The notes under the pieces: model-generated
Databases searched by the model: none
Told to the model about the DNA's origin: nothing
Seen by the model: only the letters and a program-made list of their open reading frames with translations
Assembly (NCBI GenBank): GCA_903882875.1
Contig: CAIRYQ010000078.1
Location: forward strand, 1 to 51,069
DNA from: an uncultured Spartobacteria bacterium
GTDB lineage: Bacteria; Verrucomicrobiota; Verrucomicrobiia; Chthoniobacterales; Chthoniobacteraceae
Length of the DNA: 51,069 nt
Reading direction: 5' to 3'
Translations under genes and position numbers: made by a program
Shown: positions 18,178-44,205 of the stretch, one piece after another
Numbering within the stretch: the stretch's first letter is position 1
Layout of the letters: each line of letters begins with the position of its first letter

Positions 18178-19590
18178 TCACACATACCACTCCTGCCAGT
18201 TCTTCCCCTTCTTCAATCCGGGCGTTGGCACGGGATATTTTCCGTCCTTGTCGGAGAGCAGCGGCGGCGGGCTGTCCATCGTGAGCTTGTCGGCGTTCGG
18301 GCAGTACTCGTGCTCGTGGTTGAGCATTTCGTCGAAGGTGATTTCCTGTCCGGTGTGCGCGGCCATGCGGCCCATCGAGGTCACGACGCTGGCCTCGACG
18401 CCGTATTTGACTTCGTTGAACGGCTTGTCGCTGCGGATCGCGTCAATGAGATCGGTCCACTCGTTGAAGTGTGACTCGACTTCGTTCTTCGGCACGTCGG
18501 AGGTCCAGATGAGGTTGCTCTTGCTCGGGTTCTGCCCCTTGAAGGTGCTCGAAGGCAGCCCGGTGTCACCGCTCTTCGCGGCGATGGCCATGCCTTTCGT
18601 GCCATGCACGTAGCTCGAGTAGATCTGGTTCGCGCCGATCATGCAGCGGCCGTCCATGTAGAGTTTCGCGCCGTCCTCGAAGGTGTATTCGACCGCATAG
18701 CTGTCGAAATTTTGATCCACGTAGTTGTCGCGGTAGTGGCGTCCGCCGAGGGCCTGGGCCTTCACGGGCCACGCATTTTTCATCCAGCTCAGGTGATCGA
18801 TGTGGTGGATGTAGAAGTCGCTGAAGCAGCCGCCGCTCGCCCAGATGAAGCTGTGGAAACGGGATATCTGCCACTGCAACTCAGTCGGCTTGCCGGGCAG
18901 GTTGTTATCGGGGCCGGGATATTTTTCCGAAAATGCCGAGCCGATCGGTGGGGACATGCGGTAGCCGCGCATGAGCATGATGTCGCCGATTTCGCCGTCC
19001 TGCACGCGCTTGTGGAGTTCCTGAAGCGCGCGGCTGTGGCGGCTGTTGAGGCCCACGCCGACCTTCAGGCCCTTCTTGAGCGCCTCCTCGTTCAGCTTCA
19101 GCATCAGGCGCGACTTCGGGCCGTCCGCGGTCACCGGCTTTTCCATGAAAATGTTCACGCCCTTTTCAATCGCGTACTTGAAGTGAACCGCACGGAACGC
19201 CATCGGCGTCGTGAAGATCGCGACGTCGCCCTTCTTCAGGCAGTCAATCGCCTTCTTGTAGCCGTCGAATCCGATGAACTTCGTGTCCTCTGAGACCTTC
19301 ACGTTGTTGGGCAGGGCTCTTTTCAGCGAGTCGTGGCTGCCCTTCATGCGGTGCTCGAAAATGTCCGCCATCGCGACGAGATTGATCGGCGGGCCGGTCT
19401 GATCCATCGCGTTCTTCGCCGCACCGGTGCCGCGTCCGCCGCAGCCGACGAGCGCGATGTTGATCGTCTCGCTGCTGGCGGCGTGGACGAATGGAATGGA
19501 GACGCCCGCGAGCGCGGAGGCCGCGGCGATCTGGCCGGAGGTTTTCAGGAAATCGCGACGGGAGGAGAGAGGAGGCTGTGGGTTGTTCAT
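18178..19590 (-). CDS. Tat-exported Gfo/Idh/MocA-family oxidoreductase
   Basis: The 470-aa protein begins with a twin-arginine signal, SSRRDFLKTSGQIAAASALA, cleaved near VHA-AS. It is followed by a Rossmann NAD(P) site (INIALVGCGGRGTGAAKNA) and the EKPVT motif that carries the conserved Lys of this family. The C-terminal half has the Gfo/Idh substrate-domain pattern, with WASGGCFSDFYIHHIDHLSW supplying likely substrate His residues. Exported members typically carry tightly bound cofactor and act on sugars or inositol-like compounds. The substrate here is unknown. The RNA-like element at 19713 lies 120 bp upstream on the opposite strand. Confidence 0.9.
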   Translation of the reverse strand: MNNPQPPLSSRRDFLKTSGQIAAASALAGVSIPFVHAASSETINIALVGCGGRGTGAAKNAMDQTGPPINLVAMADIFEHRMKGSHDSLKRALPNNVKVSEDTKFIGFDGYKKAIDCLKKGDVAIFTTPMAFRAVHFKYAIEKGVNIFMEKPVTADGPKSRLMLKLNEEALKKGLKVGVGLNSRHSRALQELHKRVQDGEIGDIMLMRGYRMSPPIGSAFSEKYPGPDNNLPGKPTELQWQISRFHSFIWASGGCFSDFYIHHIDHLSWMKNAWPVKAQALGGRHYRDNYVDQNFDSYAVEYTFEDGAKLYMDGRCMIGANQIYSSYVHGTKGMAIAAKSGDTGLPSSTFKGQNPSKSNLIWTSDVPKNEVESHFNEWTDLIDAIRSDKPFNEVKYGVEASVVTSMGRMAAHTGQEITFDEMLNHEHEYCPNADKLTMDSPPPLLSDKDGKYPVPTPGLKKGKNWQEWYV

Positions 19591-19712
19591 GCGGCGTGAA
19601 TCACGCGGGATGTTTTGTGCGGTGTCAATCGCGTTGCGCCGCGCCGAGAAATATTCGTCCGAAAAAATCCCGCACTTTTTTCTAACGGAACTGGCCCCTG
19701 CCGGTCTTACTC

Positions 19713-19781
19713 ATTGTTCTGGGGGGAACACTCGGGGTCGCCGGAAGGTCCTATGGATACCGGCGGCCCCGAAACTTTTTT
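19713..19781 (+). ncRNA. Candidate small RNA / terminator element, copy A
   Basis: An 18-nt motif, ATTGTTCTGGGGGGAACA (19713-19730), whose TGTTC and GAACA ends can pair, is followed by a hairpin. GGGGTCGCCGG (19734-19744) pairs over 11 bp with CCGGCGGCCCC (19760-19770). A TTTTTT tract follows at 19776. The 18-nt motif recurs exactly at 44146, where a different hairpin and T6 follow. No plus-strand gene ends within 3.4 kb upstream, so the terminator should end a short independent transcript, or be a leader of the ureohydrolase-like gene about 85 bases downstream. The 5' end and promoter are not evident. Confidence 0.5.
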
Positions 19782-44088: not shown

Positions 44089-44108
44089 TTTGTGAAACAT
44101 TTCACAAA
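44089..44108. promoter_or_regulatory. Perfect CRP/FNR-family-type palindrome
   Basis: TTTGTGAAA-CA-TTTCACAAA is a perfect 9-bp inverted repeat with a 2-bp centre and contains TGTGA-N6-TCACA, the classical CRP consensus. It begins 57 bases upstream of the RNA-like element copy B and 100 bases past the DUF1501 stop, a position suited to control of a short transcript rather than of the upstream operon. Confidence 0.6.
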
Positions 44109-44145
44109 TTCCTGTTGCAATCTGCAGGGGATCGGTGAGAGTGAA

Positions 44146-44205
44146 ATTGTTCTGGGGGGAACAGCCGGGTCATTGGCTAATCGGTCAGTGGCCCGGCACT
44201 TTTTT
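44146..44205 (+). ncRNA. Candidate small RNA / terminator element, copy B
   Basis: The same 18-nt motif as at 19713 (here 44146-44163) is followed directly by a 14-bp stem with a few G-T pairs. GCCGGGTCATTGGC (44164-44177) pairs with GTCAGTGGCCCGGC (44184-44197) around a TAATCG loop. The stem is followed by AC and T6 (44200-44205). The stem sequence is unrelated to copy A's, but position, pairing and T-tract are conserved. It may be a free small RNA regulated through the palindrome at 44089, or the terminator of the DUF1501 operon. Confidence 0.5.

Follow-up and report, generated by a model that had tools for sequence, protein, structure and literature searches.

Several described small RNAs (sRNAs) invite comparison with the element reported here. 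The RsaE/RsaA-type sRNAs of the Firmicutes are loop-based and Hfq-independent and have C-rich loops. The alphaproteobacterial alpha-r14 'cuckoo' RNAs are sibling sRNAs that expose a C/U-rich, anti-Shine-Dalgarno loop, and the CsrA-binding RNAs of the CsrB/RsmZ type have conserved G-containing hairpin loops, an intrinsic terminator and multiple siblings. The present element comes from the Verrucomicrobiota, which are abundant in soil and water, and its resemblance to each of these types is partial. Like the RsaE/RsaA type, it would be a short, structured, Hfq-independent RNA with its own promoter and terminator and an exposed loop run as the likely seed, although its loop is G-rich, the RNA is shorter, almost no stretch of it is unpaired and no Rfam family matches it. 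As with the 'cuckoo' RNAs, several genome copies have different promoters and a common loop, but what is exposed is the reverse, G6. With the CsrB/RsmZ type it shares a conserved G-containing hairpin loop, an intrinsic terminator and the existence of siblings; however, there is a single G loop and no series of A-N-GGA loops, and CsrA is found in none of the 10 genus members searched, as detailed below.

Specifically, Rfam 15 has no match in the window, and permissive scans of 3 and of 14 loci returned no match to the element above the gathering threshold, in keeping with the statement of an earlier, sequence-only reading of this DNA that no named RNA family with the motif was known to it. The plasmid counter-transcribed RNA ctRNA_pGA1 (RF00236) produced a sub-threshold match on one of the 14 loci scanned (L101; 26.5 bits against a gathering threshold of 45, E 0.39), but this lies far below threshold, and the present family is spread over the genomes of the order. 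No description of the element was found in the accessible parts of the open-licence literature (including PMC4782308, PMC8565304 and PMC2864571), and no account of sRNA regulation in the Chthoniobacterales was found in the open-licence literature. On comparative grounds, we consider it very probable that the two copies described here are members of a real sRNA family, which is best read as a set of intrinsically terminated RNAs of ~60-70 nt with differently regulated siblings. Taken as a whole, the best explanation, with a probability that we put at roughly 60%, is an order-wide family of intrinsically terminated, trans-acting G-loop RNAs.

Two copies in the window and their siblings in the genome

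The window, by which we mean the whole stretch of 51,069 nucleotides that was analysed, contains the 18-mer ATTGTTCTGGGGGGAACA exactly at 19713-19730 and 44146-44163, in both cases on the plus strand, as the sequence-only reading had noticed; in shuffles of the window, only 0.01 chance matches are expected even at up to three mismatches. At both places the 16-mer core TGTTCTGGGGGGAACA (starting at 19715 and 44148) is followed by a strong hairpin and T6, and RNA folding bore out the long stem and T6 that had been proposed after each motif. The stems are real, although their lengths needed correction: that of copy A comprises 13 bp plus an inner 4 bp and not 11 bp, and that of copy B 15 bp and not 14. 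Hairpin 1 and the terminator stem are separated by 0-1 nt in both copies, and the folding z-scores against shuffles are -4.96 for copy A and -6.56 for copy B. A consensus terminator scanner, which is restricted to loops of 3-8, did not report the terminator of copy A. The covariance model R1, built from the five copies of the window's own genome, matches copy A at 19709-19781 with E 1.1e-15 and copy B with E 3.4e-20, and the corresponding values for model R2 are 9.9e-16 and 6.0e-21, both copies being part of both training sets. The coordinates are collected in Table 1.

Table 1. Positions of predicted and putative features of copies A and B within the window
Feature	Position	Strand	Basis
Copy A, predicted ~69-nt small RNA, 5' end approximate	19713-19781	+	covariance-model matches
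Copy A, predicted 5' hairpin UGUUC-UGGGGG-GAACA, G6 loop	19715-19730	+	RNA folding
Copy A, predicted terminator: stem 19732-19772, T6 19776-19781	19732-19781	+	fold; family stem covariation
Copy A, putative promoter TTTCTAAC-N17-GTCTTA	19679-19709	+	sole pattern match in window
Copy B, predicted ~60-nt small RNA, 5' end approximate	44146-44205	+	covariance-model matches
Copy B, predicted 5' hairpin, G6 loop	44148-44163	+	RNA folding
Copy B, predicted terminator: 15-bp stem 44164-44197, T6 44200-44205	44164-44205	+	fold and terminator scan
Copy B, putative promoter: TTGCAA 44115-44120, weak -10 GAGAGT 44137-44142	44115-44142	+	family TTGC enrichment
Palindrome TGTGAAA-CA-TTTCACA (TGTGAAACATTTCACA) just upstream of copy B promoter	44091-44106		only window match at up to 2 mismatches, 0.11 expected

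The earlier statement that no plus-strand gene ends within 3.4 kb upstream of copy A holds only if the plus-strand open reading frames (ORFs) there are judged spurious; one example, at 18604-19293, lies antisense to a Gfo/Idh-type gene at 18178-19590 on the minus strand. A search of the whole genome of the source organism yielded five exact 16-mers, on contigs C37, C47, C78 (twice) and C80, and all five have the terminator, with its stem and T run. A sixth match, with one mismatch, on C107, lacks the terminator and sits in long open frames.

Conservation in the Chthoniobacterales

Judged by genome searches, the element is near-universal in the order Chthoniobacterales. The 16-mer is present within one mismatch in 53 of 57 relatives, the own genome counted, and in 24 of 26 genera, whereas the reversed-pattern control gave 0 in each; together with the five genome copies, this provides the further copies on which the sequence-only reading had staked its proposal. 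There are 1-7 matches per genome, some of them unconfirmed as copies, and among the 57 relatives the 16-mer is absent at up to one mismatch from G012, G029, G041 and G050. Across 286 genomes of the class, R1 matches 54, namely 52 of the 54 from the same order (own genome included) and 2 of the 232 others, of which one is an ordinary terminator and one a diverged G-loop hairpin. Among the same-order misses listed there are two, both 0.9-Mb genomes. G041 and G050 are strongly reduced 0.9-Mb genomes of the same order without a match, and the larger G137, which has the same genus label, has one. The loop of the G-loop hairpin is conserved almost to the letter across 13 families of the order.

A pattern scan of genome_contigs returned at least 112 stretches, and among the 80 matches listed the titles are mostly Spartobacteria, Chthoniobacterales, Chthoniobacter flavus Ellin428 and other or unclassified Verrucomicrobia, some titles of metagenome-assembled genomes being evidently mislabelled. 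The exceptions among the matches listed are a Streptomyces and a Niyogibacteria record, both of which fail the terminator rule, and one record titled only 'bacterium'. Chthoniobacter flavus Ellin428, a species that belongs to the Chthoniobacterales, has two copies, and as a named strain it makes the family directly testable.

A predicted rho-independent terminator closes the element at its 3' end. The sequence-only reading had argued that the pairing of this stem is conserved; two copies are insufficient for covariation, and it is in 98 distinct members that covariation becomes apparent. In this alignment all 15 pairs of the terminator are changed on both sides in at least one sequence, two-sided changes amount to 411 cells versus 122 when shuffled, and the covariation score is 0.597, falling to 0.168 on shuffling and to no more than 0.099 on sliding the partners. 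The 98 rows were aligned to R1 and are hence fitted to the model, and for this reason independent checks were made copy by copy. When motif copies were folded individually, 122 of 127 formed a stem of less than -10 kcal/mol and had, 32-61 nt past the motif, a T-rich run. Applied to all fetched DNA, this rule is passed by 193 of 200 motif copies; it is a loose rule, which 129 of 1000 random positions also pass. A strict rule asks for a stem below -15 kcal/mol with its start at most 3 nt from the motif and its end at most 4 nt from the T run; here 189 of 200 pass versus 26 of 1000, and with the loci fetched by a T5 requirement set aside the figure is 78 of 85, again versus 26 of 1000. Seven copies do not pass the loose rule: two come from unrelated bacteria, L059 is stemless, L098 sits at a contig end, and in L076, L086 and L115 the T run is weak. 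L055 and L087, counted among the 193 members, pass by the loose rule only and have poor R1 scores.

The 5' hairpin behaves differently from the stem. GUUC-UGGGGG-GAAC is nearly unchanged over the 98 members, and the first pair of hairpin 1 is non-standard in 22 of the 98 sequences; because the hairpin hardly varies, its pairing is predicted and unproven by covariation. Among the 193 members the core 16-mer is TGTTCTGGGGGGAACA in 142, the CG variant CGTTCTGGGGGGAACA in 46 and another variant in 5; its first T is replaced by C in 47, and the spacer is [TC]GGGGG in every one, within the variation that the pattern allowed. The invariance of the core is partly a matter of ascertainment, because most members were found by a pattern that allowed one mismatch. 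Of 18 covariance-model hits within the order that were fetched as new or weak, 15 keep GTTCTGGGGGGAAC and one has the loop U changed to C, and in L159 and L161, also among these 18, the stems are altered and the G run is kept.

The covarying stem argues against coding, and reading frames were also considered directly. The distance from the core to the T run, modulo 3, is 0, 1 and 2 in 45, 95 and 53 members, respectively. The most open frame, TTC TGG GGG GAA, has a stop inside the element in 48 of 183 members, and in each frame 12-15 of the 183 have ATG as their outermost start. In the most open frame, however, 167 of 183 have an ATG, GTG or TTG at most 90 nt upstream, which is often the TTG of the motif itself; the 47 members with the C variant are without this motif-made TTG.

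Promoter-like sequences, partners and competing readings

Upstream of the element, 103 of 140 non-redundant members have TTGC in the interval from -50 to -25, versus 21.4 when shuffled and 9 of 140 farther upstream; an A-rich stretch comes before it, and around -11 to -6 the sequence is rich in T/A. This suggests dedicated promoters that differ between copies. By eye, the start would fall at the hairpin in one arrangement and ~10-16 nt before it in another. Matches to the sigma-70 consensus at 7 of 12 positions number 57 among the 140 members (21.8 shuffled, 3 far upstream) and at 8 of 12 positions 18 (9.6 shuffled, 2 far upstream); at 9 of 12 positions there are none, with 2.35 shuffled and 1 far upstream. 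The excess over shuffles is thus modest at 7 and 8 positions, and the promoter-like sequences fall short of a strong consensus. The family has at least three promoter arrangements, and a crude classification of the 193 members gave 78 of class B, 55 of class C, 55 other, 1 of class A and 4 too short, several of the 'other' being visibly class A.

For copy A, the putative promoter resembles those of extracytoplasmic-function (ECF) sigma factors. With spacers of 14-20, the TTTCTAAC/GTCTTA pattern has 6 matches in 10 genomes versus 2 in the reversed control, and 5 of the 6 lie directly upstream of element copies and 1 upstream of a decayed copy. At this last place, L316, the promoter and terminator stem are retained and the G-loop hairpin is partly gone. 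Upstream of copy B there is no consensus-level sigma-70 match, and the palindrome that precedes its promoter is probably the site of a regulator. GTGAAANNTTTCAC is likewise found before the C47 copy and before copies of G002 (C124) and G009 (C279); at L083, L259 and L291 no adjoining element copy was seen beside it. Because the promoter arrangements and the copy B palindrome differ between copies, the siblings look differently regulated. Tandem copies with a spacing of ~195-330 bp, in which every copy has promoter-like sequence of its own, were seen at L035/L091 (G002:C6), L094 (G006:C15), L073 (G009:C240), L099 (G046:C59) and L112 (G040:C37).

Of its two proposals, the sequence-only reading had put first a small RNA whose G6 run lies open in the TGTTC-GAACA loop, and the terminator, the stem covariation and the promoter-like sequences lend this proposal support. 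Each RNA would begin with, or a few nucleotides ahead of, the 5' hairpin whose loop shows U-GGGGG-G, and the terminator helix would follow directly, leaving single-stranded the G loop, the terminator loop, the U tail and little else. We take the loop to be the active part because a two-hairpin RNA of this form has one constant open loop and no linker. If the sRNA is real, the reading we lean towards, by a modest degree, is antisense pairing by the G loop: the G6 loop would pair with C-rich stretches of target RNAs independently of Hfq, much as the loop-based sRNAs of Staphylococcus pair with their targets without it. Many genomes hold several siblings, and we infer that these RNAs are expressed and that siblings made under different conditions would deliver the same G6 loop. 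In an underpowered test, no enrichment of C runs was seen around 297 start codons.

Searches for general RNA-binding proteins bear on this proposal. None of the 57 genomes, some of which are incomplete, yielded Hfq, with the control positive in 5 of 14; an Hfq-dependent sRNA was rejected on this basis. CsrA was found in 0 of 10 genus members and in 22 of 57 genomes of the order sample, with the control positive in 3 of 14, and a CsrA sponge is unlikely because no CsrA was found in these 10 genomes, which have 4-6 motif matches each. Neither Hfq nor CsrA is likely to be the general partner. A tiny RNA in an order in which no Hfq was found would offer a clean system for the study of chaperone-free sRNA action.

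It is also worth considering that a real RNA might have its loop bound by protein instead of by RNA, which we regard as the less probable case. In its specific form, this reading takes the UUCU-GGGG-GGAA hairpin as the recognition site of a protein that the RNA titrates or guides, in the way that CsrA is titrated by CsrB-type RNAs. The near-invariance of the 14-nt hairpin in both stem and loop would fit such a role, with the caveat of ascertainment given above, as would the recurrence of the hairpin on a different scaffold in the genus and the occurrence of siblings in multiple and tandem copies, which is usual in sponge RNAs. However, the two proteins searched for are unlikely to be the partner in general, for the reasons just given, and we judge that a single loop per RNA makes an inefficient sponge. 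On balance protein titration appears rather unlikely, although it is the most serious of the rivals.

Far less probable is that the element is a 5' leader, either attenuator or riboswitch, of the genes downstream. The order of promoter, hairpin and terminator is that of a leader, and 87 of the 142 members with a downstream ORF call share their strand with the nearest such ORF. In 14 of the loci (L152-L155, L106, L100, L102 and others) a copy stands upstream of one large gene on the same strand, with the ORF start 55-1251 nt downstream, and the product of this gene has a TamB match below the Pfam cut-off. Yet the nearest downstream ORF is on the opposite strand in the other 55 of the 142, albeit with crude ORF calls, the downstream genes are unrelated between many copies, and the folds as computed are two adjacent closed hairpins with no obvious alternative pairing. 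In view of the same observations, opposite strands in 55 of 142 and neighbours that differ between copies, the alternative that had been proposed for copy A, a leader of a ureohydrolase-like gene, lacks support for the family; the product of this gene has no Pfam match. At six further loci (L039, L064, L066-L068 and L110) a copy follows a DNA polymerase III delta-like gene, and these locations and those beside the TamB-like gene may be ancestral. Considering either strand, 57 of 146 members overlap an ORF of at least 100 aa and 15 one of 300 aa, where ORF calls are crude in this G+C-rich DNA.

A DNA operator was also weighed and has hardly any likelihood. The palindrome TGTTC-N6-GAACA could be the site of a repressor such as LexA placed over the start site, since the Verrucomicrobia LexA box is TGTTC-N4-GAACA, with a free spacer and matching half-sites, and the palindrome overlaps the predicted start. 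But the spacer is 6 and not 4 and is [TC]GGGGG in 193 of 193 members (in a pattern of limited variation), a constraint that an operator has no need of; the symmetry is broken in the 47 of 193 members that have C as their first T; and a stem and T run follow the palindrome at a narrow distance. Over 13 genomes, matches to the loose pattern GTTC-N4..6-GAAC exceed the reversed control, for example 298 versus 130 per strand in the own genome, among the matches listed. A mobile repeat or an ordinary protein-operon terminator, brought to mind by the near-identity of the C47 and C78 copies and by the multi-copy class II hairpin of some genomes, is just as improbable, because the likeness between the C47 copy and copy B runs, by eye, from the upstream palindrome through the promoter and RNA to the T run and stops there, copies occupy matching places in different genera (for example, the six loci after the delta-like gene), and the stems differ among copies yet retain their pairing.

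The G loop on other scaffolds

Returning to the reading of an order-wide, trans-acting G-loop RNA family, it is informative to examine where the loop occurs outside the two-hairpin arrangement. In 6 of the 10 genus members there is a second type of structure, class II, a near-perfect hairpin of ~80 nt that is unrelated in its scaffold and bears UUCUGGGGGGAA at its tip (L336:1353-1457, L342, L351 and others, in genomes G001, G002, G006, G007, G008 and G009). Class II copies occupy 1-6 places per genome and have a T run in some cases and not in others. The outer stem covaries, with 41 cells versus 11. The first copies were found via the 12-mer UUCUGGGGGGAA itself; four that were found by the model alone retain UCUGGGGG, with G5 in two. 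Class II was not found in the window's own genome or in the 26 other genomes searched. One can imagine that a single G6 'key' (UUCU-GGGG-GGAA), carried on several differently controlled RNAs of ~60 nt and, in one genus, on class II, serves a single undescribed dedicated partner, either a protein or a C-rich RNA, independently of Hfq and throughout the order; we offer this more specific proposal tentatively.

More distant matches were found in family f15 of the same class, in which 5 of the 15 weak-match loci read have retained a G6-G8 loop followed by a terminator-like stem of different sequence; the G-loop loci of this family are L166, L172, L173, L177, L180 and L300-L303. One of these elements recurs in 4 of 60 f15 genomes, which belong to a single genus. 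These weakly matching hairpins may be deep relatives, or they may be convergent. The 10 of 15 f15 loci without a G loop are mostly plain terminators, and L178 is tRNA-like. In the phylum sample, R2 matches 21 of 280 genomes outside the order at E up to 0.001, and the four places that were read (L184-L187) are plain terminators; because low-scoring outside matches prove on reading to be plain terminators, R2 scores below ~35 bits do not identify the family.

Complements of the loop region were searched as well. Exact matches to the complement of the 12-mer beyond the known copies exceed the reversed control (2 matches in 57 genomes). The 40 places fetched among the matches listed contain 41 matches, comprising 15 class II copies in 14 regions, one family copy (L345) and 25 others, and in 11 of these 25 the F-W-G-E frame is open for at least 150 codons. 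In the remaining 14 of the 25 read (L318, L324, L327-L329, L353, L355, L356 and others), the TTCCCCCCAGAA complements are not explained by this frame and may be targets of the RNA or chance occurrences.
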